Below, piece after piece: positions 69 through 24,501 of a stretch of DNA of 24,902 nucleotides (positions are counted from its first letter, which is position 1; every line of letters begins with the position of its first letter). The notes beneath the pieces are model-generated. The model was not told the origin of the DNA. It saw only the letters and a list, made by a program, of their open reading frames with translations, and searched no databases. A program made the position numbers and the translations under genes. The DNA lies in IMG/VR virus record IMGVR_UViG_3300030419_002355, positions 1 to 24,902 of that record; one strand, 5' to 3'. The stretch is from a virus.

Positions 69-530
69 TCAATATCGAATCTCGCAGGTGATTTCTCCTA
101 CACCTAGCGGTTCGAGTACGCCTTCATCTGTATCTACTGTCATAATATTTGTTTGTACAGTAGTATGAGATGTACCTGTCGAGTCCGTGTAGGTTAAAGG
201 ATCATTATCCTCCAACACGGTTTCGACATCTTCTAACAATTCTTCGAGTGCTTCGATGACATCACTATCATCACTTACATAACATCGAACTGTTATTCTT
301 AAAAATCTAAATCGAAAGCCGCCGCCGTCATATTCTCTTGTTTCAGCTCCCGCTCCTATATGTATAGTAGGAAACTCGTCTACTTCGTCCCAAAATTTAA
401 GTCGTCTTTCGACTTTTGCGACTGAAGTTCTAAACGGAGCCTGTCCGTTTATTTTCTCAAGTGCTTCTGCAATTGCTTCTACAATGGCTCTACGACGCGA
501 CGAATATCTTCTTGCTGTTGTTGAATCCAT
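69..530 (-). CDS. tail terminator / tail-completion-like protein
   Basis: The 153-residue protein has an N-terminal helix (VEAIAEALEKI), a middle strand pair around FPTIHIGAG and FRFRFLRITVRCYV, an acidic helix (VIEALEELLEDVETVL) and a C-terminal strand (EPLGVGEITCEIRY). This alternating order fits the tail terminator or minor tail protein U-like fold that caps the tail tube and joins it to the neck. It lies between the connector/neck genes and the first tail gene, as expected. Its start overlaps the stop of the 593-residue gene as TAATG. The assignment comes from fold pattern and gene order, not a diagnostic motif. Confidence 0.6.
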   Translation of the reverse strand: MDSTTARRYSSRRRAIVEAIAEALEKINGQAPFRTSVAKVERRLKFWDEVDEFPTIHIGAGAETREYDGGGFRFRFLRITVRCYVSDDSDVIEALEELLEDVETVLEDNDPLTYTDSTGTSHTTVQTNIMTVDTDEGVLEPLGVGEITCEIRY

Positions 531-2311: not shown

Positions 2312-2904
2312 ATTACCACCCTATATAAATCAAGTACTCTTTTTATATGGTCTGGAAAGTCAGTATTATCTCTAACTCCAGAAGTTCCTTGGTTTTGCAT
2401 AGTAGCGCCACCTAGAGTTTTTCTTTCTTTATGTTCATCTTTTAAATAGTAATTTACTAAATCATAGAGAGCGAGTTTTAAATCATTAGGTGTAGATGAA
2501 TACCCTGCTTTATAAGTAATTCTCACTGCTCCCATTCCTTTTGCCCAATTTGAGGGTTCTCCATTTTTTGTTGTTCTTATAATGGAGTCCGACTCAGTAT
2601 CGGCAAAATACTCATAATTAGTTGTAAGTAATTCTTTATACTCTTCTGAATAAGCTGTTCTTTCTTCTACTTTGTTCACTGAAACTAAAGGACTTTCACT
2701 CATTATTACGGTACTAGTATAGTTGTCTGTGATATTAAAAGTTTCCACTTTATTCGTAGAGTAATAATCAATAAATGTTATGCCGCAGTACTTCTTAGCT
2801 AAATCACTAACTAAAGGTATAAGGACATTTAGACGGTCATCATCTTTCTCGCCTCTTAGTCCTTCTGCGTCTTTGAATTCATTTACTGTTATTAAATCTG
2901 CCAT
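2308..2904 (-). CDS. head-tail connector protein, gp6-like
   Basis: The 198-residue protein has the pattern of phage gp6-like head-tail connectors. An N-terminal helical part (TVNEFKDAEGL, then DDRLNVLIPLVSDLAKKYCG) is followed by beta strands (SPLVSVNKVEER). A segment near VRITYKAGYSSTPNDLKLAL leads to a C-terminal helix starting YDLVNYYLKDE. The YKAGY..(T/P)xDLKxAL element is characteristic. In HK97-like phages this protein forms a ring under the portal and seals the packaged head. It follows the capsid gene after a terminator hairpin, so it may be made at a lower level than capsid. Confidence 0.8.
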   Translation of the reverse strand: MADLITVNEFKDAEGLRGEKDDDRLNVLIPLVSDLAKKYCGITFIDYYSTNKVETFNITDNYTSTVIMSESPLVSVNKVEERTAYSEEYKELLTTNYEYFADTESDSIIRTTKNGEPSNWAKGMGAVRITYKAGYSSTPNDLKLALYDLVNYYLKDEHKERKTLGGATMQNQGTSGVRDNTDFPDHIKRVLDLYRVVI

Positions 2905-2910
2905 AATCTT

Positions 2911-2940
2911 AAAAAGTGTGGGGATTTAGGTCTCCCCACA
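2911..2940 (-). terminator. intrinsic terminator or attenuator after the capsid gene
   Basis: Read on the minus strand, TGTGGGGA and TCCCCACA form a perfect 8-bp stem with an 8-base loop, followed by CTTTTT. It lies in the 56-base gap between the capsid stop and the connector start. This fits partial termination giving more capsid than connector mRNA. Confidence 0.8.
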
Positions 2941-2960
2941 AAACCATATTAAGCCAATAA

Positions 2961-5012: not shown

Positions 5013-5280
5013 CTTCTTTTACCTCTTTCTTTGCCTTTTTAGCAGCTTTAGGTGTGGCTTTCGCCTTAACCTTTGGCTCTACGACAGGCGCTAGTGAAAT
5101 AGGATATCTAGCCTTCATTACTGACATAACTCTGTTCCAAGAACCAAATGCTCTTCTAAGCATATAGTCTTTAACAGGTACATCATTTCCGAAAGCCTTG
5201 TATTCGGCTAGTGTCATTCGTTCCACATCTTTTGATGCTACAAACTCGGACAAAGCCTTTGCCATCATATCTTTTGTCAT
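5005..5280 (-). CDS. small protein with HNH-associated repeat-like motif
   Basis: The 91-residue protein contains DYMLRRAFGSWNRVMSVM at about 38-55. This resembles the homing endonuclease-associated repeat (FGSWNxAL pattern), a small DNA-contacting unit. The C-terminus is a Lys/Ala/Pro-rich tail (KVKAKATPKAAKKAKKEVK), as in nucleic-acid-binding phage proteins. It lies between portal and capsid, overlapping both (TAATG with the portal, 8 bases with the capsid). A capsid-assembly or DNA-binding role is possible; neither is shown. Confidence 0.55.
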   Translation of the reverse strand: MTKDMMAKALSEFVASKDVERMTLAEYKAFGNDVPVKDYMLRRAFGSWNRVMSVMKARYPISLAPVVEPKVKAKATPKAAKKAKKEVKEDE

Positions 5281-6488
5281 TATTCTTCCTCGCTTGGCGG
5301 CGTTTCTGTTGGCCTGCCGCCTTCTTCGGGATTTGCGCTTGAACCTGCGATATTCGCAGGAACTCTCGGTGTATCAAATCCATCGATTGATTCAAGTCTC
5401 AATGCCTCCCTTGCTTCATTCGGTGACATAATCCCTGTATTTACAAGTGTTGCATAGTAACTTGCCTGGTCTCTTAACTCTGGCTGTAATGCAGGTATTC
5501 CTGATACATTCTCATCAAGTTTGAAACCGAAATATCTCTCGAAAGCATACGCTATTTTGTTTATTATAGGTAGTATGGTTTCTAAATAGTAAAGTCGATG
5601 GTTTGGTCTAATGTTTGCATTATTACCACCGTCCAATAAAATTGGTGGAATACCTAACGCTTTAAGTATGATTTTCTCATTGGCTGCAATGCCTTCTTGG
5701 AAATCTAAGTTCTTAAAGTTAATTTCTGTTAAGTTTTCAACCTCTAAACCACCGTCTAAAAACAATGGTCGTCTTCCACCTGATTGTGGGTTGTATCTAG
5801 CGACCCAAGCCTGTAACATTCTTTCTTTAATTTTCTCAGAAAGTGTATTAGGCGATTTTAAAACCAGTCCAGGAACTGCTCCATTTTTAAAGAAATTATC
5901 TTGGAATCTTCTCATACTTCCAAGCAATTGCATTGTTCTAAATGCAGGTTTGAGTCTTGGAACTCCACGATAAATGGAGTTAAAACTATTTTCTTTAATA
6001 TGGATAATTTCTGACGGTTTATAATCTATACTTGAATCATATTGATACTTTTCTACATAAGTATCTTCATCAGTATAGATGGTCATATGTTGGGCGGGAA
6101 GATGGTATAAATGTCTACCATCAAAATAGATAAATATATTACCGTCTATTAATAAGTCGATAATAAGATTCCTTTTAAAAGCGTTTATATCTTGAAAAGG
6201 ATTTGGCTCTTTATTTAGTAGTAATTCGACTCTAGTTCTTCTTAAATCCTTCATAATAGGACTCATTCCTAGAATCTTTTCGCCTACATCAAAAGGTATC
6301 TCCGCCACATCGTCCACTATCATGTTAACTGCGCGGTTTACTACCTCTAATTGTTCGTAAGCATTTCTGTAGTTTGTTACTACTTCACGGGTATTGATTG
6401 TAATACCTTCATCTCTAGAAATAAGATACTGAGAGGGATTTTCTTTTTCCTCTCTATCTATTCCTAAAAATCTATCATACCATGCCAT
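5280..6488 (-). CDS. portal protein, HK97 family
   Basis: The 402-residue protein matches the HK97 portal family. It has the N-terminal YRNAYEQLEVVNRAVNMIVDD helix, NPFQDINAFKRNLIIDLLIDGN, the central KNGAVPGLVL segment, and the LFLDGGLEVENL / ANEKIILKALGIPPILL stretch typical of these portals. The C-terminus is Pro/Glu-rich and probably disordered. Portals form the 12-fold ring through which DNA is packaged and to which the tail attaches. It overlaps the upstream HNH gene by 14 bases and the downstream gene as TAATG. Both its position and length are typical. Confidence 0.93.
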   Translation of the reverse strand: MAWYDRFLGIDREEKENPSQYLISRDEGITINTREVVTNYRNAYEQLEVVNRAVNMIVDDVAEIPFDVGEKILGMSPIMKDLRRTRVELLLNKEPNPFQDINAFKRNLIIDLLIDGNIFIYFDGRHLYHLPAQHMTIYTDEDTYVEKYQYDSSIDYKPSEIIHIKENSFNSIYRGVPRLKPAFRTMQLLGSMRRFQDNFFKNGAVPGLVLKSPNTLSEKIKERMLQAWVARYNPQSGGRRPLFLDGGLEVENLTEINFKNLDFQEGIAANEKIILKALGIPPILLDGGNNANIRPNHRLYYLETILPIINKIAYAFERYFGFKLDENVSGIPALQPELRDQASYYATLVNTGIMSPNEAREALRLESIDGFDTPRVPANIAGSSANPEEGGRPTETPPSEEE

Positions 6489-6846
6489 GTTTTTCTCTCT
6501 GTATTCTTACCCAATTCTCTTGTTTCTTTGCTGTTACGAGTCTTGGGCGTTTTCCATAAATGCTATGCAACCTTAAATGATGCATATGACAAAGTGTAAC
6601 AGCATGGTCATAAACTTTCTCATATTCGTCTTCAATGAATTGCTCACGAAGACCTAATATATCTTGTTCAGTATCTACGGTTAATTTATTCTTTTTTAAC
6701 CATGTTTCTAACAACTCGGTTAATCCATAAAAGTGATGAAAATCTAGCTTTTCTGTTGCTCCACAGATAAAACATTCCGTCCCTTTTTTATATTGGGACT
6801 TAGCCTTATCTCGAACATACTTAACTAAATCTCTCTTTAATGTCAT
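6475..6846 (-). CDS. HNH endonuclease, packaging-associated
   Basis: The 123-residue protein has an HNH zinc nuclease layout. CFIC (Cys25, Cys28) is followed by the LDFHHFYG core (His37, His38), then VTLCHMHHLRLH with Cys86 and His89/His90. Small HNH proteins next to terminase and portal genes, such as HK97 gp74, can stimulate terminase cleavage during packaging, and that role is the best guess here. The ATG at 6846 is chosen over a TTG at 6876 because the TTG lies inside the promoter spacer at 6867-6895. A homing nuclease role is less likely, as the gene is in register with its neighbours and follows a dedicated promoter. Confidence 0.82.
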   Translation of the reverse strand: MTLKRDLVKYVRDKAKSQYKKGTECFICGATEKLDFHHFYGLTELLETWLKKNKLTVDTEQDILGLREQFIEDEYEKVYDHAVTLCHMHHLRLHSIYGKRPRLVTAKKQENWVRIQREKHGMV

Positions 6847-6866
6847 AAACCTACTTCTATATAAGA

Positions 6867-6895
6867 ATTGTAACAAATTTTTAAGTTCAAGTCAA
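6867..6895 (-). promoter_or_regulatory. sigma-70 promoter for the HNH-portal-capsid genes
   Basis: On the minus strand TTGACT is followed by a 17-base spacer and TACAAT. An AT-rich TTCAAAAAATAG stretch lies just upstream, like the other promoters in the window. The predicted start site leaves a leader of about 15 bases before the HNH ATG at 6846. Confidence 0.75.
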
Positions 6896-6918
6896 GAACT
6901 ATTTTTTGAAGGGGTAGA

Positions 6919-8220
6919 CTAGAAAGTAACAGCACTTGTTTCGAACGAATATAACGCATAACGAAGGGCATCTGCCATGTGCGATGCATAGTTATGTTTG
7001 GGTTTTTCTTTTAATAAATTAGGGTTGGGGTCCCACTGATATTGGTCAAGGCAAATTAAACTTTCAGCGCATTTCTGATGAACGATTAATTTATCATTAT
7101 CTATAATACCCCCTACATGTCCAATACCATCTAGTACAGATTTCTTTGCGTTAAGAGTACTAATATCATAATTCTGTGCAAAGTCAAATCTGGTTTGTTG
7201 AGCTGCCGAATCAATATAAATATAATCAATATCCCATTTATCAATTAATTTTCTAATCTCTATTGCGTGTTGCTCGGTAGTTCGTTCTGAATTAAGGTAC
7301 TCGTCTAGAAGATAAAATACTTCTTTATCCCAATCGTACCCTATTACACAAAATGCTGTTGGGTCTTTGTACCCTACATCCATTCCTGCAAAAACATCCA
7401 TTTTGCTAGTTTCTATTTCGGATAAGTCTGCTATACATTCTTCGTGATTAAATGCCCATACTTGTCCTTCATAAACATTAAAGTCTGCCATATATTCCTG
7501 ATTGAATTCTGCTTCTGACATAGTTTTCTTTGCTTCTGCAATATCAGTCTCGGAAAGTCTTGGGTTTTCATGGTAGGTTGCTCGAACAGATGCCCACTCT
7601 GGATATTCTCCTGAGAAGCCTCTTTGCCAAAATTCAGCAAACCAATTATTTCTACCTCGTGGAGTAGATATAAAAAGTGCTTTTGAATTTTCTTTATCTA
7701 GGGTCGGACGGAGAGCCACATTGAAAGCATCTTTTCCGTCCACCAACGCAGCTTCGTCAAAGATGATGAGATCATAGGATCGGCCCACAACAGAATCGAC
7801 CTGATTAACCGAGCCCATGCGGATTGTAGAGTGGTTCGAAAGTTCAATAACTTTATCTTTAGCATTGTCTCTTAATACCTCTAAATCAAAATGCTTAATC
7901 AGTTGTCTTTGTAAATCAAATGATATTTGTGAAAGTGAGTAATTTGGTGACATCAGTAGTACATTACAGTTGGGAACTAGAGTGACTAACTGACCTATTA
8001 TATTTGCTATATAAGTTTTTCCTTGTCTTCTGGAAACGGCGGCAGTAATAAAACGATATTTAGGGTTATTTATTGCGTTTATAATCGCATTCTGGCTAGT
8101 ATTAGGATTAATGCCTAATAAATCCATATAACCTTCGATGGGGAGTTTGATGAATCTTCTGTCATCAAATTTCATTAATCCATCGGATAAAATATCCTTT
8201 CTGCTAACTTCTATACTCAA
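6919..8220 (-). CDS. terL: terminase large subunit
   Basis: The 433-residue protein has all landmarks of a packaging ATPase-nuclease. Walker A is SRRQGKT at 63-69 and Walker B is LIIFDE at 151-156. A coupling motif STP lies at 185-187. The RNase H-like nuclease carries acidic residues Asp281 (GMDVGY), Asp337 (IYIDS) and Asp417 (HMADALRYA). It pumps DNA into the prohead and cuts the concatemer. Length is near the family norm. The start overlaps the 76-residue upstream gene as ATGA. The small subunit candidate lies far away at 18502-18963. Confidence 0.95.
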   Translation of the reverse strand: MSIEVSRKDILSDGLMKFDDRRFIKLPIEGYMDLLGINPNTSQNAIINAINNPKYRFITAAVSRRQGKTYIANIIGQLVTLVPNCNVLLMSPNYSLSQISFDLQRQLIKHFDLEVLRDNAKDKVIELSNHSTIRMGSVNQVDSVVGRSYDLIIFDEAALVDGKDAFNVALRPTLDKENSKALFISTPRGRNNWFAEFWQRGFSGEYPEWASVRATYHENPRLSETDIAEAKKTMSEAEFNQEYMADFNVYEGQVWAFNHEECIADLSEIETSKMDVFAGMDVGYKDPTAFCVIGYDWDKEVFYLLDEYLNSERTTEQHAIEIRKLIDKWDIDYIYIDSAAQQTRFDFAQNYDISTLNAKKSVLDGIGHVGGIIDNDKLIVHQKCAESLICLDQYQWDPNPNLLKEKPKHNYASHMADALRYALYSFETSAVTF

Positions 8221-10799: not shown

Positions 10800-10828
10800 A
10801 TTATATCAAAGTCTGGACCGAATGTCAA
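10800..10828 (-). promoter_or_regulatory. consensus sigma-70 promoter
   Basis: TTGACA, a 17-base spacer and TATAAT on the minus strand match consensus fully. It begins just past the cyclase stop codon and drives the holin-like gene and downstream packaging genes, giving this segment transcription independent of the accessory cassette. Confidence 0.85.
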
Positions 10829-10831: not shown

Positions 10832-12622
10832 CTATTTTCGTATGGTATAGATTTTGACAGGTTCAGACTTACCTTTTACAGTTACCTCGTCTAAAAAGTC
10901 GTAGTCATAACCATCAACTAAACTGTACTCAGAAATAATTAATCCTGTATCGTACTCTTTACAACTGCTCTCTAGCCTAGCAGCCAAATTGACGCTATCA
11001 CCAAGCACACTGTAATCGAAACGACTATTACTACCAAAGTTTCCGACGACACAGAGTCCGGTATTGATACCTGCACCTGTGTGAATCTCGTCCAGTCCTT
11101 CTTCTTTAAGTTTTTCATTTAATTCCTCCAACGATTCCCTCATTTCTAGAACCGCTTTAGTTGCATTCTCTTTATGATTCTCATCTTCAAGAGGCGCGCC
11201 CCAAAACGCCATAATACAGTCTCCCATATATTTATCTATTGTACCCCCGTGTTTCATAATTATCTCAGTCTGATTAGTTAAAAAACGATTAATCAGATTA
11301 GTAAGTCCTTGTGGATTCTTCTGGTATTTTTCAGAGATGGGGGTAAATCCTCGTATGTCAGAAAATAAGAAAGTTAGTTGTTTCGTCGACCCACCCAATT
11401 CAAGTAAATTTGGGTTTTTTTGTAATTTTTCAACCAAGTCCCTAGATACATATGTCCCAAATTGTTGTTTAATTTGTAAACGCATGAAATACTGCTGGAG
11501 AAAATTCCTGAAAGTTACAATACTCCAAAACAAAATCGAGATGATTACGATTCCAGAGATGTCCAATAAATAGGAAGATTGATAAGCATACCAGGTACCA
11601 TAAGATAGTCCACCAATAATTGCTAATAGAGTAGGTAAACTAACATATATCCAACCTGCAGTAATTAGAATAAGGAGCAAAGCCAGGACTGCAGCTCCTA
11701 GCTCCGCTGAAACAGCCCAATCTGGTGTAGAAGGGGCTGTACCTTCTATAAGGTTATGTAGTACATTCGCCTGTATCTCATGAGGATATTTTGGTCCTGC
11801 AGGTGTCGGTACTGGGTTAACTACTCCCTCTGCTGTTACTCCTATTATAATAAAAGGAGCTTCAATAGGGTTTCTTAAAAATTCTGCTGCTGTTTGTTTG
11901 TAGAACTTTGTATTCCAGTTAAGATATATTCTCCCATTTGGGTCTGTATTCATTTCTGGATATGCTGGTACTCTAACCCATTCTACTCCTGTTTCATTAG
12001 TACGAATTTGATAACTAATATCATCTACTGCAAGTCTAAGCATTTCTAGTGCAAAACTTGGATATAGTTTATCTTGAACATTAACTACTAGAGGTATTCT
12101 TCTGGTTACTCCATCGATTTCGGGACTTGCTGTAATTAATCCAACCCCATCAGCTGTTGTAGAGAGCATGGGTTCTTGTTTTAAAAGTCCAGGATAGTTA
12201 AAAAGCCACGGAAGTGGGTCTTCTCCAATTTGGGCAGTCCCTATGTGAGGGCCTTGTGTAGTTACTTGACTTGAAGCTGCGTATGCAAGTACTGCTTTTC
12301 TTTCCATAAAAGCATCTGCTAATTCAATATCGTTTTCAGCTCCTCGAATGTCTGGATTAGGCATTAGTACCGTAATACCTGAAACCCCGTGTGTCCTTTC
12401 TACTAGAGTTGCATATAATTCTCTAGGTAATGGATATCCGTTATATGCATCAATGATTTCCTCATCTAAATCAATGATTAAGATATTCTCGTTTTGAACT
12501 TCCTCAGTATTCATTATTAAATAATCAAATACTTTTAATTCTAGTATTTTAAAAGGATAGGGATTCCAGGCCAGTAATAAAACGAAGCCTATTGCTAGTA
12601 GTGCGTTAGTTAGTGTTTTCAA
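10832..12622 (-). CDS. CHASE2-domain class III adenylate/guanylate cyclase
   Basis: The 596-residue membrane protein has a signal anchor (1-20), a periplasmic CHASE2 sensor (about 25-300), two to three membrane spans (about 303-370) and a cytoplasmic class III cyclase domain (about 412-596). Catalytic features are intact: metal-binding Asp422 (FSDIRGFT) and Asp468 (DKYMGD), purine-contacting Lys464 with Ser538, and transition-state Asn545/Arg549 in GDSVNLAARLES. The Lys/Ser pair favours ATP as substrate, so cAMP is the likely product. Translation probably starts at TTG 12622, preceded by AAGGA at good spacing, right after the curlin gene stop. CHASE2 cyclases are typical of bacteria; one in a phage late operon is unusual. 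Next to FecR and curli genes it may signal secretion or surface state. Confidence 0.92.
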   Translation of the reverse strand: MKTLTNALLAIGFVLLLAWNPYPFKILELKVFDYLIMNTEEVQNENILIIDLDEEIIDAYNGYPLPRELYATLVERTHGVSGITVLMPNPDIRGAENDIELADAFMERKAVLAYAASSQVTTQGPHIGTAQIGEDPLPWLFNYPGLLKQEPMLSTTADGVGLITASPEIDGVTRRIPLVVNVQDKLYPSFALEMLRLAVDDISYQIRTNETGVEWVRVPAYPEMNTDPNGRIYLNWNTKFYKQTAAEFLRNPIEAPFIIIGVTAEGVVNPVPTPAGPKYPHEIQANVLHNLIEGTAPSTPDWAVSAELGAAVLALLLILITAGWIYVSLPTLLAIIGGLSYGTWYAYQSSYLLDISGIVIISILFWSIVTFRNFLQQYFMRLQIKQQFGTYVSRDLVEKLQKNPNLLELGGSTKQLTFLFSDIRGFTPISEKYQKNPQGLTNLINRFLTNQTEIIMKHGGTIDKYMGDCIMAFWGAPLEDENHKENATKAVLEMRESLEELNEKLKEEGLDEIHTGAGINTGLCVVGNFGSNSRFDYSVLGDSVNLAARLESSCKEYDTGLIISEYSLVDGYDYDFLDEVTVKGKSEPVKIYTIRK

Positions 12623-13435
12623 TTAATTTCCTTGTGTTACAGTAATATTACAACCGCCAGTAGTTATACAGTTCTGGCTTAGTGTGTAGTTTTGAGTAGT
12701 GTTTCCTCTTTGTAATAAGTCTAAAATAGTCGGCTGACTACCATTAAGTGTGATGGTGGCATTGTGTTCGCCATTGTTTTTCTGACTAATACTGACTTCA
12801 TTGTCGTCATTATAAATATAAAGTGTTAATTCTTTGTCTCCGTTCTGCATTTGCTTTACAAAAACATCATTATTATCTGCATATATAAACGCTTTAATAC
12901 TGTGGTTTATAGAACTGCTATCTTGTTTTTGACTTCCTTTGAATTCATTATCATCTCCATGAATATCTAACTGTACGAAGTTTCCCCCAGGCTCAGTTCC
13001 ATCATAATTCCAATTTGGAGTTAAACTATTACCATTTTCATATCCTTGACCAAAAACAACCTTATTTTCGTCTCCCCAAACATGCATTTGGAAGTCGTTT
13101 TCATTACAACTAGAAGCAGAGCATTTTTGTTTAATTGTCAGTTCATTACCTAAACCATCTACATCACCACCCCAATTATAACCAGACCCCCATATATCAG
13201 TATACCCAATATAATTATTATTTCCATATTGGAATAAATCTAAAGTATTATCATCATGATTGAAGGAGAATCTTATTAAATTATTATGTCCTACTTGGTC
13301 AATTTCAAGACTAAAATTGTCTCCACTTTGTACTTGGTCAATATGTACATGGTTATCGTCTGCTTGTAGCTGTTCGCCAAAAACGAATATTACTACAATA
13401 AATAATATTAAAGCACTTTTTAAAAATTTAATCAT
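12623..13435 (-). CDS. secreted curlin-repeat protein (CsgA/CsgB-like)
   Basis: The 270-residue protein begins with a signal peptide (IKFLKSALILFIVVIFVFG, cleaved near EQLQA). It then has repeated short strands with the curlin pattern IxQxGxxN: HIDQVQSGDNF, EIDQVGHNNL, DLFQYGNNNY, later VSISQKNNGEHN and LDLLQRGNTTQN. Such repeats stack into a beta solenoid and polymerise as amyloid in E. coli curli. Repeats here are separated by irregular acidic segments with Cys pairs. The ATG at 13435 is chosen because the signal peptide begins there and it overlaps the upstream stop as TAATG. It probably leaves the cell through the CsgG pore encoded nearby. Confidence 0.82.
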   Translation of the reverse strand: MIKFLKSALILFIVVIFVFGEQLQADDNHVHIDQVQSGDNFSLEIDQVGHNNLIRFSFNHDDNTLDLFQYGNNNYIGYTDIWGSGYNWGGDVDGLGNELTIKQKCSASSCNENDFQMHVWGDENKVVFGQGYENGNSLTPNWNYDGTEPGGNFVQLDIHGDDNEFKGSQKQDSSSINHSIKAFIYADNNDVFVKQMQNGDKELTLYIYNDDNEVSISQKNNGEHNATITLNGSQPTILDLLQRGNTTQNYTLSQNCITTGGCNITVTQGN

Positions 13436-13599
13436 TATGTTATCCAACAGACTGGGTATACACACCAATAAGGATTAGCAAATCCTAAAAACCATAGAAT
13501 TAGTATCCATAGCGGTATCTGTATCCAAGTCTTCCCTTTAGACCACTCTCTAAATCTTAGAGCATATGGAGCTAGTTTATTAAATAATTTTATTACCAT
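13435..13599 (-). CDS. 54-residue membrane protein
   Basis: The peptide has an N-terminal amphipathic basic part (VIKLFNKLAPYALRFREW) and one hydrophobic Trp-rich span (IQIPLWILILWFLGFA), then a short Cys-containing tail (YWCVYPVCWIT). The stop overlaps the curlin start (TAATG) and the start overlaps the upstream stop by 7 bases, so it is embedded in the operon. It may assist export of the neighbouring curlins. Family not recognised. Confidence 0.65.
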   Translation of the reverse strand: MVIKLFNKLAPYALRFREWSKGKTWIQIPLWILILWFLGFANPYWCVYPVCWIT

Positions 13600-13892
13600 T
13601 TTACTTTATTTGCCCAATAAGCTGCGGACATTTTTCCTTTCTTTATGTTCTTTGCGTGACGAGCCTTAAATGAGGCTCTACGCTTTTTCTGGGCGGCTGA
13701 TTTAGGAGACTTTCCTGCTCCCTTGACTCCTTGTTGTCCAAATCTAATAGTCTTTGTTCTTTTGCCTACTTTTGCGACTACTACATGAGATTTAGTTTTA
13801 TGTTTTGGAGTTCTTTTTGGTTTATTATATCCAGATACTCCAGCTCTCTTAAGTTTACCGTTTCTTTTCTTTCTAGCTCTTTTTCTTGCCAT
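13593..13892 (-). CDS. conserved-type basic phage protein (DUF5872-like)
   Basis: The 99-residue protein is Lys/Arg-rich. It carries the ordered elements GYNKPKRTPKHKTKSHVVV, KTIRFGQQGVKG, RRASFKARHAKNIKKGKMS and AAYWANKVKW. I associate this pattern with a small basic family in marine phages, from memory as DUF5872; the name needs checking. The ATG at 13892 is preferred to one at 13937, since GGGG lies upstream and the longer start would run inside the 28-residue gene. Nucleic acid binding is likely from charge. Confidence 0.75.
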   Translation of the reverse strand: MARKRARKKRNGKLKRAGVSGYNKPKRTPKHKTKSHVVVAKVGKRTKTIRFGQQGVKGAGKSPKSAAQKKRRASFKARHAKNIKKGKMSAAYWANKVKW

Positions 13893-13959
13893 GTTTCTTT
13901 CCCCTTTTCTTCTTAGGTCGTCCTCGACGCTTTCCATATGTTCCTTTACCTTTTGGCAT
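13873..13959 (-). CDS. 28-residue AT-hook-like peptide
   Basis: The peptide is MPKGKGTYGKRRGRPKKKRG followed by a Lys-rich tail. RRGRPKKKRG matches the AT-hook core (RGRP flanked by basic residues), which inserts in the minor groove of AT-rich DNA. A perfect AGGAGG lies four bases before the ATG, one of the strongest ribosome sites in the window. It overlaps the next gene by 20 bases. DNA binding is inferred from the motif. Confidence 0.65.
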   Translation of the reverse strand: MPKGKGTYGKRRGRPKKKRGKKHGKKKS

Positions 13960-13967
13960 ATTTCCTC

Positions 13968-15083
13968 CTAATTAGTCTGTCGTATGATTATACTAATAGA
14001 CTCTCCATCACCTGTTGTGATTATACTTTCTTTTTCATCAGTTATAGTCTGAATTCGAGCATTGGCATCTATAGGCAGTTTAATACTGATTATACCAGTA
14101 ACTTGTCTATAAAACCAAATTTGTCCACTATCATCAATTATAGTATTATATTGAGTTTGTGGGTCAAGTCCTGGTTTTGTTCCTTCAATAGAAACTTGTT
14201 CAAAACCACCACTATCTCTGTTTCTATCAAGTAAGTCTGATTCCTCTATGATTTCTAGTAAGTCTTGTAAAAAGTCTACATCTAATAAATCAATGTCTAA
14301 TTCTGAGAAACTCCAATCTTTATCTTCTTCTAAGTAATCAGTTTCTAATTCATTAAATTCTAGAAAATCTGCAGTTAGTATATTACTTGCACTATTTTCA
14401 GTTCTTACTTCCTCTACTGCTGTTTGTATTTCTGCTGGAGGAGATACAATAAATAAGTTATCAATTTGTGCTACAGTAACATCAGTTAATTGTACAGGTT
14501 TTACAGGGGGACTTGATATAGTTGATACCATAGTAGCCTGAAACGCCTGATTTAAAGTAACTGTACCGCCTTCATTTGTTACTGTTATCTCTCCAGAAGC
14601 GTCTCCATTTGCATCAGGTAAGAGAATTATTAGTGACCTTCCTAATTCATCAATTGTAGTAGTAAAGTCTGTTCCTCTAATTCCTATTTGTGCAGTAGGA
14701 GTTTCGATAGTAATATTTGCTTTGTTCATGTTAGCAGACATACCAGAGGTAAATCGTGCTGTTCCCATAGCAAACTTCATTACCATCTTTGATTTAGATG
14801 GATTAGGGTCATAAATTACTTCGTCAATTAAAACCCTGCTATGTTCGGTTAAACGGAGATTTGAGTCATCAAGAAATTCTACTTTCATTCGTCCGTTGCC
14901 TGTGTTAAGCAAGTCATATAATAATACATCTTGGTCAACTGCGGCAACGAACTCCTGATTATTTCGTGTAAGTGCGCCTTTACCCGTCTGTTCCGTAATA
15001 TCACCAATAGGATTGGCTAATGCTAAACTAGGTACTAGACTAATCGCTAGTATCTTTTTGATTAATTGTAATCGTCGCATCAT
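13968..15083 (-). CDS. secreted FecR-domain protein
   Basis: The protein of about 371 residues begins with a basic signal peptide (RRLQLIKKILAISLVPSLALA). A FecR domain follows: TEQTGKGALTRNNQ, VKVEF-like strand LDDSNLRLTEHSRVLID, the family signature TPTAQIGIRGTDF, then LITVTN-type strands. The C-terminal half is acidic with DLLDVDFL-like repeats. FecR proteins read an outer membrane receptor state and pass it to a sigma factor. A stand-alone periplasmic FecR, without an anti-sigma N-terminus, is common next to CHASE2 cyclases. The start region overlaps the upstream curlin gene by about 44 bases, with no strong ribosome site, so the exact ATG (15083 or 15080) is uncertain. Confidence 0.85.
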   Translation of the reverse strand: MMRRLQLIKKILAISLVPSLALANPIGDITEQTGKGALTRNNQEFVAAVDQDVLLYDLLNTGNGRMKVEFLDDSNLRLTEHSRVLIDEVIYDPNPSKSKMVMKFAMGTARFTSGMSANMNKANITIETPTAQIGIRGTDFTTTIDELGRSLIILLPDANGDASGEITVTNEGGTVTLNQAFQATMVSTISSPPVKPVQLTDVTVAQIDNLFIVSPPAEIQTAVEEVRTENSASNILTADFLEFNELETDYLEEDKDWSFSELDIDLLDVDFLQDLLEIIEESDLLDRNRDSGGFEQVSIEGTKPGLDPQTQYNTIIDDSGQIWFYRQVTGIISIKLPIDANARIQTITDEKESIITTGDGESISIIIRQTN

Positions 15084-15756
15084 CTGAAGTAATATCAAGA
15101 TTAATCACACCTGAACAAGAAGTAACACCCTGAGGGCAGCTTCCTGACTGCTGTATAATATCAATATCTGCATCGTCCCCGTTAAACTCTGCTATTAGGA
15201 TTTGGTCCTCATCTTTTTGTTGAGTATTAATGTTATTACCGTCACCAGTAATATCCCATTCCCATTTAACACTATCTGCATCTACTAATGTAGTAAATAT
15301 ATTAGTACCTCCAGTAAGAGTTAAATCATAGTTAAAGCTTTCGGAAGATTGGTTATACCCCAAATCAAAGTCCCACTCATTTGAATCCCCTGTAACATCT
15401 AAATCTAAGTCCAGACTATCTGCAGAGCCAGTATATCCAATGTTCCAATCAAATATGTTACTGTCCCCTGTAAATACCATGTCTATATTAGCTGAGTCTA
15501 ATACGATAGGTCCAAATAATTGGTTACTATTTCCTATTTGGTCTAAATTAAAGGTTATGTCACTACCTGTGATTTCCATATCAGTAGCACAAGCTCCTGA
15601 TGCAATAGTTCCACAAAATTTGTTTCCATAACCTATCTGGTCAATTGTCAAAGTCAAAGTATCACCCTCTTGTTCAAGAAAAATCTCGTTATCGGTTGAT
15701 TGTGCGAAAATTGACACAGAAAGGAAAAGTGCAAATATAGTTAAATATTTATTCAC
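15040..15756 (-). CDS. secreted curlin-like repeat protein 2
   Basis: The 238-residue protein has a signal peptide (NKYLTIFALFLSVSIFAQS). Curlin-like strands follow: LTIDQIGYGNKF, FNLDQIGNSNQL, NINTQQKDEDQ, IDIIQQSG and ITINQKD. Between them are Asp/Ser-rich units of the form DLDVTGDSNEWDFDLGY. GTG at 15756 is chosen: GGGAG lies six bases upstream and the signal peptide begins there. It overlaps the csgG stop by 8 bases. Being directly after csgG, it is the most likely secreted substrate. Its Cys pairs could form disulphides. It is longer and more acidic than E. coli CsgA. Confidence 0.8.
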   Translation of the reverse strand: MNKYLTIFALFLSVSIFAQSTDNEIFLEQEGDTLTLTIDQIGYGNKFCGTIASGACATDMEITGSDITFNLDQIGNSNQLFGPIVLDSANIDMVFTGDSNIFDWNIGYTGSADSLDLDLDVTGDSNEWDFDLGYNQSSESFNYDLTLTGGTNIFTTLVDADSVKWEWDITGDGNNINTQQKDEDQILIAEFNGDDADIDIIQQSGSCPQGVTSCSGVINLDITSDDATITINQKDTSD

Positions 15757-16618
15757 TATTTTCTCCCTTATGCTCTTGGATATTCCAAAAGCCTCTTTCG
15801 TCACCTTGATAAATAAAGGCGACAACTGCAGCTTCAATCGCTGCACGGGTTGCAACAGTAACGCTTTCGTTCTCCGCAACTCCGTCTTCTATTTCTACTA
15901 GTTGAGTATCCATATCGACAAATTTAAATACATCGAAACCTCCACCAACTGATAGAATAGTCTTCTTGGCCTGAACATTTAACAAAATTTCTCCTGTTAA
16001 AGTGCTTATGCCCCTTAGACTTACTGTGACCACATCTCGTCTATATTGAGTTGACCTGCCCACCCCTAAAGTCCTTGCTCCTCGTCCGCCAGATTCTATA
16101 TTAGAGTCATATCCTATGATACCACCTTCTATAATTATTCCTGCGAAGAGTAGTGGCTGTATGCCTTTGTTCTCTGTTTCATCGCTTTCCTCTCTAGTAC
16201 TTCTAACAATTTGTCTTTCTCGTACTAGATGGTCTATTTGAGCTCTTTCAACTACACGGAACCATGTTCCATTTCCTGCAGTTTTTAAAGCATCAATAAG
16301 TAATTCTGTTCCACCTTGGGTTACTGCAGTACTAAAGTCTGCTAAATTATCTCTACGCTTTCTTTGTCCAGTTAAATCATTAAATCCATAAACTGCAACT
16401 ATTGGCATTTTTTCCGCTGGGGGTAAATTTAATAGTCTTTCGTAAGTAGGAAGTTCAACTATCTCTGGTCCTTCAACACAGGTAAATGGAATTGCCTTTT
16501 CAACCATAGTTTTTACATCAACTATGTCAGGGTCACAATTAGTGTCGTCCCTATCCATTCTAGGAACGCTTGCACACCCCGCTATTAAAAATACTAGCAA
16601 AATGGCTAGTAGCCTCAT
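15749..16618 (-). CDS. csgG: CsgG-family curli secretion lipoprotein
   Basis: The 289-residue outer membrane lipoprotein has a lipobox (LIAGC, lipidated Cys15). CsgG signatures are clear: ADFSTAVTQGGTELLIDAL, WFRVVERAQIDHLVRERQIVR, IIIEGGIIGYDSN, YRRDVVTVSLRGISTLTGEILLNV and TRAAIEAAVVAF. In E. coli nine copies form a pore for curli subunits, with a constriction of Tyr51, Asn55 and Phe56. Here Phe56 is kept (Phe95), but the Tyr and Asn positions align with acidic Asp90 and Asp94, so the channel may suit a different substrate. A strong GGAGG lies six bases before the ATG, which overlaps the csgF stop (TAATG). Confidence 0.92.
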   Translation of the reverse strand: MRLLAILLVFLIAGCASVPRMDRDDTNCDPDIVDVKTMVEKAIPFTCVEGPEIVELPTYERLLNLPPAEKMPIVAVYGFNDLTGQRKRRDNLADFSTAVTQGGTELLIDALKTAGNGTWFRVVERAQIDHLVRERQIVRSTREESDETENKGIQPLLFAGIIIEGGIIGYDSNIESGGRGARTLGVGRSTQYRRDVVTVSLRGISTLTGEILLNVQAKKTILSVGGGFDVFKFVDMDTQLVEIEDGVAENESVTVATRAAIEAAVVAFIYQGDERGFWNIQEHKGENSE

Positions 16619-17100
16619 TAGAATCCTCCAGTACCGATTGGGATTGTGATTACTGTTTCACTTCCCTCGCTGTCAGTTATAGTCATGATTATAACTTCTA
16701 CACATACTCCATCTTCCCCGCATTGCTCGGTTCTTTGATAGGTAATAGTATTCCCTTCTAGGGTAAATGAGCCTGAATAACTAGACTCTTCATTTCCGAA
16801 CATATTATCTACTAATTGTTTTGATAATTGTGCGTATATTCTTGATTCTAAGTTTCGAATGAACTTAGCTAAAGTTGTATTTTCTAATGCTCTCTGTTCA
16901 GCTTTTAGTGCTGCTTCGATGTCATCTTGTAATTTATCTCGTCTTGATTTTTCTTGGTTTTCAATCGTTAAATAGTGAGCAGAAGTACCTACTCCACTAA
17001 AAGACGGATTTTTGAATTCGTGTGTAATTTCGTCGCTTAAGACTAATGGTGTAAAGAAGAAGATAATTGCTATCCATCTACTTGTCTCTTTTCTTTTCAT
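16618..17100 (-). CDS. csgF: CsgF-like curli assembly factor
   Basis: The 160-residue protein has a signal peptide (about 1-22). Its mature N-terminus, HEFKNPSFSGVG, matches the CsgF element FRNPNFGGN that threads into the CsgG pore. A helical part (LAKFIRNLESRIYAQLSKQLVDNM) and C-terminal strands (FTLEGNTITYQ, EVIIMTITD, TVITIPIGTGGF) follow, as in CsgF. It caps CsgG and links secretion to nucleation on the cell surface. It immediately precedes csgG. There is no CsgE or CsgB-type dedicated nucleator in the window. Confidence 0.85.
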   Translation of the reverse strand: MKRKETSRWIAIIFFFTPLVLSDEITHEFKNPSFSGVGTSAHYLTIENQEKSRRDKLQDDIEAALKAEQRALENTTLAKFIRNLESRIYAQLSKQLVDNMFGNEESSYSGSFTLEGNTITYQRTEQCGEDGVCVEVIIMTITDSEGSETVITIPIGTGGF

Positions 17101-17329
17101 TTTCTTTCATCTGTAAAACGGTGTTTACCTTTTGCTGTAAACGAATCATATCGTTGTCGAGCATTCGTATCTGGTCGATTAGTTTTATCAGTGTTAAATG
17201 CATGCTTTTAATTGTCGGTCCAATTACTTTTGTAAATGTGTACCATACATAGTAAACAAAATACCCCAATCCCACCATAGCAACAATCGGAAATCCAAAC
17301 TGTTGTATGGCATCAATCACGCCTGACAT
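17078..17329 (-). CDS. small membrane protein, BhlA/holin-like (paralogue 1)
   Basis: The 83-residue protein has one N-terminal membrane span (QFGFPIVAMVGLGYFVYYVW) and an amphipathic/coiled C-terminal half (LIDQIRMLDNDMIRLQQKV). It resembles BhlA/UviB holin-like proteins. It shares a common pattern with the next gene (PI-TM-...-M-ND-IRL), so the pair is a tandem duplication. It overlaps csgF by 23 bases. It may be a holin component or an accessory of the export system; position favours neither. Confidence 0.65.
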   Translation of the reverse strand: MSGVIDAIQQFGFPIVAMVGLGYFVYYVWYTFTKVIGPTIKSMHLTLIKLIDQIRMLDNDMIRLQQKVNTVLQMKENEKKRDK

Positions 17330-17606
17330 CTAACCTACCGTCCTCGATAAAATTTTCAGCTCTCGCAATTCTGTCTAAATCTGGTGTAAGTTCGAGAGCT
17401 GCGCTTACACTAGTGTCTAATCTAATTATGTCATTGTTCATAGTTTTCACACGAGTGATAAGACTATTCGCAAATCCTTCAAGTGTCTTTACTTGCCCAA
17501 CTACTCCACTCATTATTTGCTTCATAATTGTAAAAATAAAAACACCTGCTACCAGGGCTCCAGCTATAGGGGCACCTACTTGTGCTATTAAGTTCCAAAT
17601 ATCCAT
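17313..17606 (-). CDS. small membrane protein, BhlA/holin-like (paralogue 2)
   Basis: The 97-residue protein has an N-terminal span (QVGAPIAGALVAGVFIFTIM) and a coiled segment (ITRVKTMNNDIIRLDTSVSAAL). It aligns with its downstream neighbour along both parts, with MNNDIIRL matching LDNDMIRL. It starts at TAATG with iscA and overlaps paralogue 1 by 17 bases. Two similar one-span proteins may form a hetero-oligomer, as holin/antiholin pairs do; this is inference. Confidence 0.65.
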   Translation of the reverse strand: MDIWNLIAQVGAPIAGALVAGVFIFTIMKQIMSGVVGQVKTLEGFANSLITRVKTMNNDIIRLDTSVSAALELTPDLDRIARAENFIEDGRLDVRRD

Positions 17607-17923
17607 TAGAATCCTACACTGACACCACAGCCACAGCTTGCCTGTTCTTGTGGATTAATAAACTTAAACTGTTCATTAACTCCATCAACAACCCAATCTA
17701 TTGTCATACCTTGTATATAAGGGCCTGACACCGGGTCTATATTAAATTTAATTTCGCCATAATCGATAACAAAATCATTTTCTTTTGGTTCTTTACAGTA
17801 GTCAAATATATACTCATATCCAGCACAGCCACCGCCAGTTAATCCTATTCTAAAAGCATAGGTTTTCTCACGGGAGGCTCTTTCTACTAATTTGGAATAA
17901 GCTTCATTTGTTACTTCAATCAT
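17606..17923 (-). CDS. A-type iron-sulfur carrier protein (IscA/ErpA family)
   Basis: The 105-residue protein has the three conserved Cys of A-type carriers: Cys33 in TGGGCAGYEY and Cys97/Cys99 in SCGCG near the C-terminus. The fold strands (FRIGLTGGG, FNIDPVSGPYIQGMTIDWV) are intact. It accepts Fe-S clusters from IscU or passes them to apo-proteins. The ATG at 17923 is used because the upstream TTG would lie deep in iscU. It overlaps iscU by 8 bases, as in a real Isc operon. Cyanophages carry A-type proteins, but pairing with IscU is rarer. Confidence 0.9.
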   Translation of the reverse strand: MIEVTNEAYSKLVERASREKTYAFRIGLTGGGCAGYEYIFDYCKEPKENDFVIDYGEIKFNIDPVSGPYIQGMTIDWVVDGVNEQFKFINPQEQASCGCGVSVGF

Positions 17924-18317
17924 TCTGTTTTCGTTCCCAATCAAGTATTGCTTCTCTTATAGCTGATTCAGCTAGTACTGAGCAGTGCAATTTAATTGGA
18001 GGCAATTGCAATGCTTCTGCAATTTCTTTGTCTTTTATTTCTCTAGCCTCTGCTAAAGTTCTGCCTTTTAGCATATCGACGAACATTGTGGAACTCGCGA
18101 TTGCTGAACCACAACCATATGTTTTGAACTTAACATCTTCTATAATTTCGTCTTTGTTAAGTTTAATCTGAAGTCTCATGACATCACCACACGCTGGTGC
18201 TCCTACTTGTCCAGTAGCTACAGCGGGGTCTTTAGGGTCAAATCTACCTACGGAAAATTGTCCGGGAGCGTTTAGTACTTCTTCGAATCTTTTTACGACC
18301 TCTTTGCTATATGCCAT
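17916..18317 (-). CDS. iscU: IscU Fe-S cluster scaffold
   Basis: The 133-residue scaffold has all ligand residues: Cys43 with Asp45 (GAPACGDV), Cys69 (TYGCGSAIASS), His111 and Cys112 (LHCSVLAE). The LPPIK at 105-109 matches the LPPVK motif recognised by the HscA chaperone. It begins MAYSKEVVKRFE. It should build a cluster from host IscS sulfur and hand it to the IscA-like protein next door. Length is typical. No IscS, HscA or HscB is in this window, so host partners would be needed. Confidence 0.93.
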   Translation of the reverse strand: MAYSKEVVKRFEEVLNAPGQFSVGRFDPKDPAVATGQVGAPACGDVMRLQIKLNKDEIIEDVKFKTYGCGSAIASSTMFVDMLKGRTLAEAREIKDKEIAEALQLPPIKLHCSVLAESAIREAILDWERKQND

Positions 18318-18969: not shown

Positions 18970-18998
18970 ATTATATCAAATTTTATATCTGATGTCAA
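18970..18998 (-). promoter_or_regulatory. consensus late promoter
   Basis: TTGACA, 17-base spacer and TATAAT match consensus exactly, preceded by TTCAAAAATAATTC. It drives the long leftward operon beginning with the TerS-like gene. TATAAT is only six bases from the ATG, so transcription would begin at or next to the start codon. Confidence 0.88.
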
Positions 18999-19588: not shown

Positions 19589-20073
19589 TAACAAGACTTT
19601 ACAATCCTAATCCTATAATCGCTATCTATGATTTAGATAACACAATCATTGATAGCGAACATAGGCAACTTTCAAATGATGATGGCTCAATCAATCTTGA
19701 ACATTGGTTTGAGAATTGCACAGAAGAAAAAATAAATAAAGATACATTACTGCCTTTATATAATAAATTGGTTAAGCAATATAAAGAGGGCAACACAATC
19801 ATTCTATGCACAGCTAGAAACATGGGTAAATATGATTATGAATATCTTTATAAAAATAATATTTGGCACGATAAAATCATATCAAGACCTAAAGACTGCA
19901 CAACTAAAGATTATATTTTAAAGGCACAACAATTAAAATATCTATTCAATCTAAAACAATATGCCAAGATACAAAAAGAATTTTATGACGATAATACCGA
20001 TAACCTAAAAGCATTATTCAAATTAGGGGCAAAGGTATTCAATGCCATAGAATTAAATGAGGAAATGAAATGA
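19585..20073 (+). CDS. HAD-superfamily phosphatase-like protein
   Basis: The 162-residue protein has HAD motifs in order: motif I YDLDNT with nucleophile Asp16 and Asp18, motif II Thr76 in IILCTAR, and motif IV acidic pair in YDDN (Asp135/Asp136). Such enzymes remove phosphate, for example 3'-phosphates from DNA or RNA (T4 PseT-like), or nucleotides. The ATG at 19585 follows GGGGGG at the right distance. Its end overlaps the PPK2 gene by 4 bases, so the two are probably made together. Substrate not predictable. Confidence 0.82.
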   Translation: MITRLYNPNPIIAIYDLDNTIIDSEHRQLSNDDGSINLEHWFENCTEEKINKDTLLPLYNKLVKQYKEGNTIILCTARNMGKYDYEYLYKNNIWHDKIISRPKDCTTKDYILKAQQLKYLFNLKQYAKIQKEFYDDNTDNLKALFKLGAKVFNAIELNEEMK

Positions 20074-20708
20074 ATGAATTAGAAATACAACAGGCACGAC
20101 TAAACCGAATATTAAAAAAGGATTTTGGAAAGGTTGCCGTTATCCTAGAGGGTAGAGATACTGCTGGAAAAACAGGAACAATCAGAACGCTAACACACTA
20201 TATGCCAATAGATAAATTCTCAATTCATCTATCCACTAAACCAAGCCAAGCAACAATGAATAATTGGTTTAGATTTTGGACAAATAAATTAGAAATGGCT
20301 AATAATAAAATGGTTATCTTTGATAGGTCATGGTATTCAAGGGGTTTAGTCCAAGCAATTAATGGGTGGTGTTCAGAGGAACAATATGCACACTTCATGG
20401 AAAATGTGCAATCATGGGAAGAAAAGAAAGAAGATATAAGATACATTAAATTTTGGTTATCCATATCAGAAGAAACACAAAAAAGACTAATTGAGAAAAG
20501 GGAAAATTCACCATTAACAAATTGGAAACTATCACCGAATGACAGACTTGCTCTATCCTACTTTGACAAAATGACTATCTACAAAGAAAGGGTAATTACT
20601 TCCACTAAATATTGGAATGTAATTGACTACAACGACAAAAAGAAAGGGCAACTAGAATTAATCACAACTTTAAATAACATATTAGAAAAGGGGTTAAAAA
20701 ATGACTAA
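20070..20708 (+). CDS. polyphosphate kinase 2 (PPK2) family protein
   Basis: The 212-residue protein matches the PPK2 P-loop fold. Walker A is LEGRDTAGKTG (GRD 28-30, Lys34). Walker B FDRSWYSRG is at 84-92. Lid elements follow: IKFWLSISEETQKRLIEKR and NWKLSPNDRLALSYFDKM, with the family triad WKLSPxD. PPK2 enzymes transfer phosphate between polyphosphate and nucleotides (ADP/GDP to ATP/GTP, or AMP to ADP). GKTG replaces the more usual GKGG. The protein is at the short end of the family but has all core elements. A PPK2 in a phage early operon is unusual and could raise NTP supply from host polyphosphate. It overlaps genes on both sides. Confidence 0.88.
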   Translation: MNELEIQQARLNRILKKDFGKVAVILEGRDTAGKTGTIRTLTHYMPIDKFSIHLSTKPSQATMNNWFRFWTNKLEMANNKMVIFDRSWYSRGLVQAINGWCSEEQYAHFMENVQSWEEKKEDIRYIKFWLSISEETQKRLIEKRENSPLTNWKLSPNDRLALSYFDKMTIYKERVITSTKYWNVIDYNDKKKGQLELITTLNNILEKGLKND

Positions 20709-22870: not shown

Positions 22871-22976
22871 TGTGGATAAATCTGTTAATAAACGCACACT
22901 TATCCACAAACTTCCACAGATCCAACGCACAAAATAATCCCACTTTATCCACAGCTTATCCACAGAGTTATCCACA
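22871..22976. other. DnaA-box cluster, putative replication origin (left part)
   Basis: Five exact TTATCCACA boxes lie at 22871-22879 (minus), 22900-22908, 22945-22953, 22956-22964 and 22968-22976 (plus). The last three are spaced 11 and 12 bases, about one helical turn. Such clusters are bound by DnaA at chromosomal, plasmid and some phage origins. An AT-rich stretch follows at 23228-23270. No coding sequence occupies this segment. Confidence 0.75.
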
Positions 22977-22979
22977 ATT

Positions 22980-23197: not shown

Positions 23198-23226
23198 ATT
23201 ATAGCAGAATTTTTCTCGTTTGTCAA
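23198..23226 (-). promoter_or_regulatory. consensus promoter for RNA B
   Basis: TTGACA, 17 bases, TATAAT on the minus strand, preceded by an A/T-rich TTTTTTCAAAAAATCTC. No gene lies downstream before the convergent operon's terminator. Confidence 0.85.
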
Positions 23227-23696: not shown

Positions 23697-23725
23697 ATTA
23701 TACCACACTCTCCTAGATTTGTCAA
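23697..23725 (-). promoter_or_regulatory. second consensus promoter upstream of the 49-residue gene
   Basis: TTGACA, 17 bases, TATAAT on the minus strand. Its transcript would cross the two DnaA boxes before reaching the 49-residue gene. The adjacent 23726-23825 is AT-rich and holds no gene I can support. Confidence 0.82.
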
Positions 23726-24014: not shown

Positions 24015-24043
24015 ATTATATCAGAAGTTTTTGCGGGTGTCAA
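24015..24043 (-). promoter_or_regulatory. consensus promoter for RNA A
   Basis: TTGACA, 17 bases, TATAAT on the minus strand. The octamer ACACCCGC overlaps the -35 element. Confidence 0.83.
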
Positions 24044-24472: not shown

Positions 24473-24501
24473 TTGACAAAACAAGTCAAAGCATATATAA
24501 T
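24473..24501 (+). promoter_or_regulatory. consensus promoter for the last gene
   Basis: TTGACA, 17 bases, TATAAT on the plus strand. Transcription would start near 24508. Confidence 0.87.

Follow-up and report, generated by a model that had tools for sequence, protein, structure and literature searches.

A candidate curli-type secretion module with a FecR–CHASE2 pair between phage packaging genes

Gene content of the cassette

The stretch of DNA analysed here (hereafter the window) is the 24,902-base IMG/VR record IMGVR_UViG_3300030419_002355, in which phage packaging and head genes occupy positions 530-8220 and a cassette of curli-type secretion and signalling genes lies further right on the same strand. 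According to the list of open reading frames (ORFs) and Pfam searches, the cassette comprises six genes at 10832-17100 (-), encoding CsgF, CsgG, curlin-1, a FecR-domain protein, curlin-2 and a CHASE2 cyclase. The original prediction had named the same six genes in a leftward array, and this is confirmed: all are ORFs on the minus strand with Pfam matches, save curlin-1, which is recognized by alignment and pattern. The probable starts of curlin-1 (GTG, 15756), FecR (ATG, 15083) and curlin-2 (ATG, 13435) lie later than the listed ORF starts.

10832..12622, minus strand: CHASE2 sensor with class III nucleotide cyclase, probably an adenylate cyclase (CHASE2 PF05226, 1.7e-32; PF00211, 5.4e-21)
12623..13435, minus strand: curlin-2, secreted curlin-repeat protein, predicted beta-solenoid (PF07012, 4.9e-5, over its cut-off; structure model)
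13968..15083, minus strand: secreted FecR-domain protein with signal peptide, FecR domain, acidic linker and C-terminal beta domain (PF04773, 2.9e-9; phrog_37870, 1.8e-71; model)
13968..14003, minus strand: curlin-2-like strand-Q tail of the FecR protein, ending ...ISIIIRQTN (tail pattern)
15040..15756, minus strand: curlin-1, secreted curlin-repeat protein (alignment, position and pattern count)
15749..16618, minus strand: CsgG, lipoprotein pore of type VIII secretion (PF03783, 8.8e-47; N-terminal lipobox LIAGC)
16618..17100, minus strand: CsgF, secreted outer-membrane partner of the CsgG pore (PF10614, 7.5e-14, above its cut-off; phrog_35372, 2.3e-41)

The genes had also been described as tightly overlapped, which holds for most joints but not for that between FecR and curlin-2, where an ORF of 114 amino acids (phrog_7595) intervenes. 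CsgG matches solved CsgG chains (E 1.4e-44), and a lipobox is present in 47 out of 56 phage CsgG proteins. Hydrophobic N-termini are found in 50/56 CsgG, 66/67 CsgF, 66/69 curlin-1, 65/71 curlin-2 and 66/70 FecR proteins. CsgF is 43-44% identical to CsgF of phages HTVC008M and Melnitz. Curlin-1 has no Pfam match, and aligns with the curlin genes found at the same place in HTVC008M (29% identity) and Melnitz (31%). The strand-Q-turn pattern occurs in five copies in curlin-1 and eight in curlin-2, numbers reached by none of 1000 shuffles of either protein. The curlin-2 profile matches the solved curlin-repeat protein 8c50 (E 2.8e-4). A Foldseek search returned no PDB match at E <=0.001 for the model of curlin-2 or for that of the FecR protein, and a second structural comparison placed the curlin-2 model among right-handed beta-helix proteins, not curlins, e.g. 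SufD (Z 17.1, root-mean-square deviation (rmsd) 2.7, 202 aligned residues). Overall, the CsgG pore, CsgF and predicted secreted curlin-repeat substrates of type VIII secretion are present, and the earlier proposal that a phage carries a curli-type secretion set with two curlin-like substrates, a FecR protein and a CHASE2 cyclase is thus supported.

Four of the six genes are matched strongly by PHROGs families (cyclase 1.5e-159 and CsgG 5.7e-68, in addition to the FecR and CsgF families listed above), so that relatives are already present in phage databases. Against three independent relatives (three of the six row sets being repeats of the same contigs), and with silent sites near saturation, the ratio of amino-acid-changing to silent change (pN/pS) is 0.15-0.22 for FecR, 0.23-0.27 for CsgG, 0.20-0.30 for CsgF, 0.19-0.31 for curlin-1, 0.28-0.41 for the cyclase and 0.27-0.49 for curlin-2, the fastest-changing of the six. 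Amino-acid change is below silent change in all six (pN/pS 0.15-0.49), a pattern pointing to genes that are maintained as proteins.

Conservation of the cassette and its carrier phages

TerL of the window is 48-50% identical to proteins of, e.g., Vibrio phage VspSw_1, Pectobacterium phage My1 and Klebsiella phages (best 30 of 1219 matches), and its fused protease-capsid protein is 35-39% identical to those of, e.g., DT57C and T5_ev212 (best 30 of 1017); we take these phages to be T5-like. By its predicted packaging and head genes the carrier is thus T5-like, and the cassette lies between TerS and TerL. The carrier does not fit the myophage or HTVC023P-type podophage class of the published module (PMC9599517), because its TerL and head protein are T5-like. 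An HTVC023P-type identity was rejected, as a comparison of TerL with the terminase of 023Pt_psg01 gave nothing significant (best E 0.15). Among 72 new loci found with the TerL of the window, csgG is present in all nine whose sequence extends 9.5 kb or more upstream of the terminase, and the cyclase in 22 out of 23 with at least 4.5 kb upstream. Judged from these contigs, the position between TerS and TerL is a fixed feature of this T5-like phage group.

We further collected 139 CsgG loci in two scans (best 80 each of 567 and 130 relatives), which represent the nearest relatives of this CsgG and not all phage CsgG. Where at least 6.5 kb downstream of csgG is available, a curlin is found in 58/58 loci, a second curlin in 57/58, FecR in 58/58 and the cyclase in 56/58. 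The synteny check proposed with the original prediction shows that relatives do not carry merely scattered members: in 49 out of 52 loci with both flanks the whole set stands in order, together with the two small genes described below (eight genes in all), the cyclase being missing in two of the others and the second curlin in one. In loci collected with the cyclase as seed, csgF, csgG, curlin and FecR are present in all 23 (out of 80) that could be judged. Marker genes placed 23 of the 139 CsgG loci, 16 as T5-like, seven as T4-like and none as podophage, leaving 116 unassigned. In a CsgG tree the 56 phage rows (those kept out of 162 complete CsgG from phage loci after removal of near-copies; 30 of them without a phage group) stand apart from five alphaproteobacterial ones, and T5-type rows are found at two or more separate positions, consistent with movement of the module between phage lineages.

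The cassette is immediately preceded by two small genes:

17078..17329, minus strand: small membrane protein B, 83 amino acids, overlapping A and CsgF (phrog_18771, 1.8e-25)
17313..17606, minus strand: small membrane protein A, 97 amino acids (phrog_18771, 3.4e-25)

Two small membrane ORFs and csgF lie upstream in 132/132 CsgG loci with at least 1.5 kb upstream, and the ORFs at that place in the window, HTVC008M and Melnitz (83-115 amino acids) form one phrog_18771 pair. The two predicted small membrane proteins thus belong to the cassette as constant partners. Each is apparently built of one membrane helix followed by a charged helix. One or two upstream genes of the phage module have been called histidine kinase (PMC9599517). 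These are probably the same genes, and the label is doubtful: no kinase family in Pfam matched the two proteins or eight relatives (ten proteins, E up to 10).

In a tblastn search of 50,697 phage records, CsgG was found in seven and the cyclase in eight, both occurring together in HTVC008M and four Melnitz strains. Annotation and alignments show that HTVC008M and Melnitz share the order csgF, csgG, curlin, FecR, second curlin and cyclase with the window, two genes of the HTVC008M cassette being annotated as hypothetical. CsgG in a 1.5-kb unverified Salmonella phage record groups with bacterial CsgG and was set aside. Contig L306 (PAPS01000029.1), binned as Saprospirales, holds the phage cassette and has 20,286 nt, as does the IMG/VR record behind locus L124; further genome-bin contigs with the cassette are L307-L309 and L317. 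All are probably phage contigs in bins. The unassigned cassette contigs L118, L127, L090 and L044 also bear DNA methyltransferases, and L127 a CobS-type ('porphyrin biosynthesis') protein.

The FecR-domain protein and its tail

The N-terminal signal peptide is the only hydrophobic segment of the FecR protein, which thus lacks a transmembrane helix and a cytoplasmic anti-sigma part. A structure model built from 50 sequences (mean predicted local distance difference test score 79, predicted template modelling score 0.52) comprises the FecR domain, a linker at about residues 206-293 that is weakly predicted and, from about residue 300 on, a C-terminal beta domain modelled with confidence; the structural search scarcely probed this last domain. 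The likeness to curlin-2 resides in the extreme C-terminus. A strand-plus-Q pattern is found in 111 of 112 distinct phage FecR tails (shuffled tails: mean 4.6, maximum 11), the only exception being a fragment from locus L133, which holds a matching tail too. The same pattern ends 96 of 103 curlin-2 proteins. Moreover, the 39 invariant columns of the 50-row FecR alignment include I369 and Q371. The pattern is found in none of 75 complete cellular FecR ORFs, which are distant and share mostly the FecR domain.

Could the protein be structural rather than sensory? As an anchor or CsgB-like nucleator, it would be fixed at the cell surface by its N-terminal domain and template curlin with its tail, while the cyclase would respond to a different signal. 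The curlin-2-like tail is in keeping with such a role, as are a match of the N-terminal part of the model to the 'cell surface anchoring domain' 5ix9 (Z 10.1, rmsd 2.3, 73 aligned residues, 23% identity) and weak NCBIfam matches to two surface proteins of Leptospira, Lsa33 (4.9e-5) and LipL45 (0.0027), neither of which comes near its cut-off. No paper on 5ix9 was found in a literature search. However, the model is matched best by signalling domains of periplasmic anti-sigma proteins, PupR 6ovk (Z 15.9, rmsd 2.4, 135 aligned residues, over the FecR domain) and 4m0n (Z 14.1), and pairs of FecR and CHASE2 also occur in cells that have no curli genes nearby. We consider a structural role possible but doubtful.

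The CHASE2 cyclase and cellular FecR–CHASE2 pairs

In the cyclase the CHASE2 domain is followed by hydrophobic segments near residues 301 and 349 and then by the class III domain, whose best solved relative is CyaB (3r5g, E 4.2e-38). In 64-66 of 66 aligned rows the expected catalytic positions are conserved (metal-binding Asp, Lys, Asn and Arg, with roles that we presume for these residues). The Lys points to ATP as the likely substrate, and the second specificity position is Ser in 64/66 rows. The cyclase of Melnitz (L003:11655-13706) deviates around the Asn and the second specificity position of the catalytic domain. Matches of the catalytic domain to Pycsar cyclases in PADLOC (best 2.1e-29) might be taken to mean that the enzyme acts against host defence or signalling, e.g. 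by flooding a cyclic-nucleotide receptor, and is a mere neighbour of the curli genes. Yet these matches span the class III catalytic domain only, for which reason a Pycsar identity was rejected; other class III cyclases, such as CyaB, match more strongly, and the CHASE2 sensor stands beside FecR and curli genes in 56/58 loci. Such an independent role is accordingly the least probable of the explanations considered here.

Pairs of FecR and CHASE2 proteins also occur in cells. In 16 out of 68 cellular loci whose FecR ORF is complete, a CHASE2-type ORF lies within 2.5 kb of it, a count from which L306-L308 and L317 (phage-type cassettes in genome bins) and L309 were left out, and no csgG or csgF match was found at those FecR–CHASE2 loci. 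Four cellular CHASE2 proteins were tested, of which L373 has a cyclase output and L311, L340 and L364 a SpoIIE phosphatase domain. In the SAR11 single-cell genomes L340 and L364 the FecR protein stands beside the CHASE2-SpoIIE phosphatase protein; the idea that SAR11 has its own FecR-cyclase pair was dropped, since both SAR11 CHASE2 proteins tested carry the SpoIIE output. Published examples of FecR–CHASE2 pairs come from a biofilm operon of Burkholderia (PMC5192318) and from Campylobacterota, where adenylate cyclases are involved (PMC9239204). Collectively, the FecR–CHASE2 pair is the constant part and the output domain is variable. Conversely, among 385 genomes of the class of Labrenzia (Alphaproteobacteria), five have a CsgF match that passes the cut-off, and the 15-kb neighbourhoods of all five csgF genes gave no match to FecR, the CHASE2-cyclase or the small proteins. 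Within this sample cells thus keep curli and FecR–CHASE2 apart, whereas phages join both; bacteria beyond the sample may have operons in which the two are combined.

Promoters and the transcription unit

18970..18998, minus strand: perfect TTGACA-N17-TATAAT promoter before TerS (12/12 consensus bases)
10800..10828, minus strand: perfect consensus promoter 3 nt past the cyclase stop codon, start of the next unit

The window contains six perfect TTGACA-N17-TATAAT sites, against 0.00 expected in shuffles. Only perfect sites are enriched, a loose promoter scan giving 35 sites against 34.3 in shuffles. In T5-type loci a perfect site lies within 200 nt past the cyclase stop in 74 out of 100 cases, and over all groups 74 of 76 such sites begin 3 nt past the stop. 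The promoter before TerS is probably the start of the transcription unit that holds the cassette. Taken with the promoter right after the cyclase, this suggests that the cassette ends one unit, which includes TerS and, here, IscU and an IscA-like gene. The other four perfect sites are at the right end of the window (23198-23226, 23697-23725 and 24015-24043 (-), and 24473-24501 (+)), three of them close together.

A proposed mode of action

The gene set can be read as a phage-encoded type VIII (curli) secretion module whose exporter is monitored by a FecR–CHASE2 sensor, a reading that we regard as evenly poised between right and wrong. The host-type promoter upstream of TerS would drive the cassette in the infected cell. 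Signal peptides would take the curlins across the inner membrane, the CsgG-CsgF pore would be their way out, and amyloid-type curlin fibres on the infected cell could then shield it against rival phages or hold nearby cells. The FecR protein, with its tail like that of curlin-2, would bind subunits of the fibre, either in the periplasm or at the outer membrane, and report via the CHASE2 domain, so that the cyclase would make cAMP according to the state of the fibre. Since cells pair FecR with CHASE2 proteins of differing outputs, sensing would be the task of this pair within the module. A more specific version, in which a curlin-type strand at the end of FecR is pulled into, or released from, curli subunits and thereby drives the CHASE2 cyclase, is unlikely in our estimate. 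If true, it would mean that phages have fused two cellular modules, curli export and FecR–CHASE2 sensing, and that the resulting circuit signals the condition of a fibre outside the cell.

Several observations weigh against this proposal. CsgE was not found among the ten ORFs scanned with Pfam; the CsgE gate is not part of every type VIII secretion system. A second curlin between FecR and the cyclase was detected in only 11 of the 23 judgeable cyclase-seeded loci. The strand-plus-Q tail pattern was defined post hoc, from the tails themselves, and is neither common to both curlins nor exclusive to them, occurring in just 3/119 curlin-1 proteins yet in 26/125 cyclases. Homology between the FecR C-terminal domain and curlin-2 is unsupported (hhalign probability 3.0, E 0.015), and the likeness of the tails may be convergent. 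No cyclic-nucleotide-binding (PF00027) protein was found in three SAR11 genomes, which are possibly incomplete; this bears on the target of cAMP if the host is SAR11. Finally, infections with Melnitz, which carries the six genes, reportedly showed no clumping in cytograms or electron micrographs (PMC9004378), which counts against strong aggregation.

This last observation is also compatible with a CsgG-CsgF pore repurposed for nutrient uptake or for lysis timing (as pinholin or secretin), with the curlin-like proteins as remnants or plugs. Such roles have been proposed from csgGF and the apparent lack of curlin genes (PMC9004378, where a pinholin or secretin role is put forward for Melnitz csgGF, and PMC7029224), and small membrane protein B has a weak match to a holin family (phrog_4898, E 0.04). 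Curlin genes nevertheless exist in the very Melnitz and HTVC008M records, a curlin ORF and a FecR ORF accompany csgG in every one of the 58 loci with sufficient downstream sequence, and both curlins of the window are under constraint. We therefore hold a repurposed pore to be improbable, to much the same degree as the strand-driven sensor.

Neighbouring genes and iron

13593..13937, minus strand: basic phage protein of 114 amino acids, between FecR and curlin-2 (phrog_7595, 2e-36)

The phrog_7595 gene is found at 4/7 assessable T5-type, 0/77 unassigned and 0/5 T4-type loci, and its product is probably not part of the system. Genes for IscU (TIGR01999, 1.5e-48, under its cut-off) and an IscA-like protein (PF01521) at 17606-18317 (-) adjoin the cassette in the same direction. 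Together with the FecR domain and fold, their presence could be taken to favour an iron-dependent regulation of the module by FecR, as PMC9599517 suggested. However, the FecR protein lacks both a transmembrane helix and a cytoplasmic anti-sigma part, the ten ORFs scanned with Pfam include no sigma factor, and Fe-S genes near the cassette are not constant (4/7 T5-type, 8-9/77 unassigned and 0/5 T4-type loci). On these grounds iron regulation was rejected as the principal explanation, and we think it very unlikely.

Two further features lie to the right of the cassette. A polyphosphate kinase 2-like protein is encoded at 20070-20708 (+) (TIGR03707, 4.1e-47, under its cut-off). At 22945-22979, 35 bases are identical to the replication initiator gene of bajarodmic virus 1126 (a 5.6-kb record), the sole megablast match of the window in the phage collection.

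Comparison with known systems

The original prediction had presented the full set as something beyond what was known, and this does not stand. A curli cluster, with a proposed role in sibling capture, was described in pelagimyophages (PMC7029224), and in 2022 a full module with FecR, second curlin and adenylate cyclase was reported in SAR11 podo- and myophages (PMC9599517), along with signs of transfer between phage families and a metatranscriptome signal for phage curli genes. According to the same paper, the SAR11 hosts have no curli genes; likewise, CsgG was found in none of the three SAR11 genomes tested here (possibly incomplete). The cassette of the window is a further member of this published kind. 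It shares with the phage modules of PMC9599517, PMC7029224 and PMC9004378 the order csgF-csgG-curlin-FecR-curlin-cyclase and the preceding small genes, and differs from them in its T5-like carrier, the site between TerS and TerL, the phrog_7595 insert and the small genes without a kinase domain. The term 'T5-like' does not appear in these three papers on phage curli. As new points the analysis adds T5-like phages as carriers, the constant presence and the make-up of the two small proteins, the tail of the FecR protein (at which no literature search was aimed) and the comparison of FecR–CHASE2 pairs.

Several marine phage groups, including phages of SAR11, keep the module as a block. If the module is functional, ocean bacteria under infection would carry an amyloid surface made by the phage, which would affect superinfection, aggregation and gene exchange. 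With the T5-like carriers, the small proteins, the FecR tail and a FecR–CHASE2 pair with exchangeable output, what was loosely an 'iron regulator plus cyclase' becomes a model of a sensor that can be tested.

Among cellular systems, the bacterial curli operons (csgBAC/csgDEFG of E. coli and csgF-csgG-curlin of Alphaproteobacteria) are alike in the CsgG pore, CsgF and curlin-repeat substrates, whereas FecR, the CHASE2-cyclase and the small proteins are unmatched at all five alphaproteobacterial csgF neighbourhoods. The FecI-FecR-FecA iron system has the FecR domain and fold in common with the cassette, which differs from it in lacking the transmembrane helix, the cytoplasmic anti-sigma part and, among the scanned neighbours, a sigma factor. 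The cellular FecR–CHASE2 pairs (BiofilmReg of PMC5192318, and PMC9239204) are alike in having a secreted FecR protein beside a CHASE2 sensor, with an output that is a histidine kinase in Burkholderia BiofilmReg, a cyclase in Campylobacterota and a SpoIIE phosphatase in SAR11 (L340 and L364).

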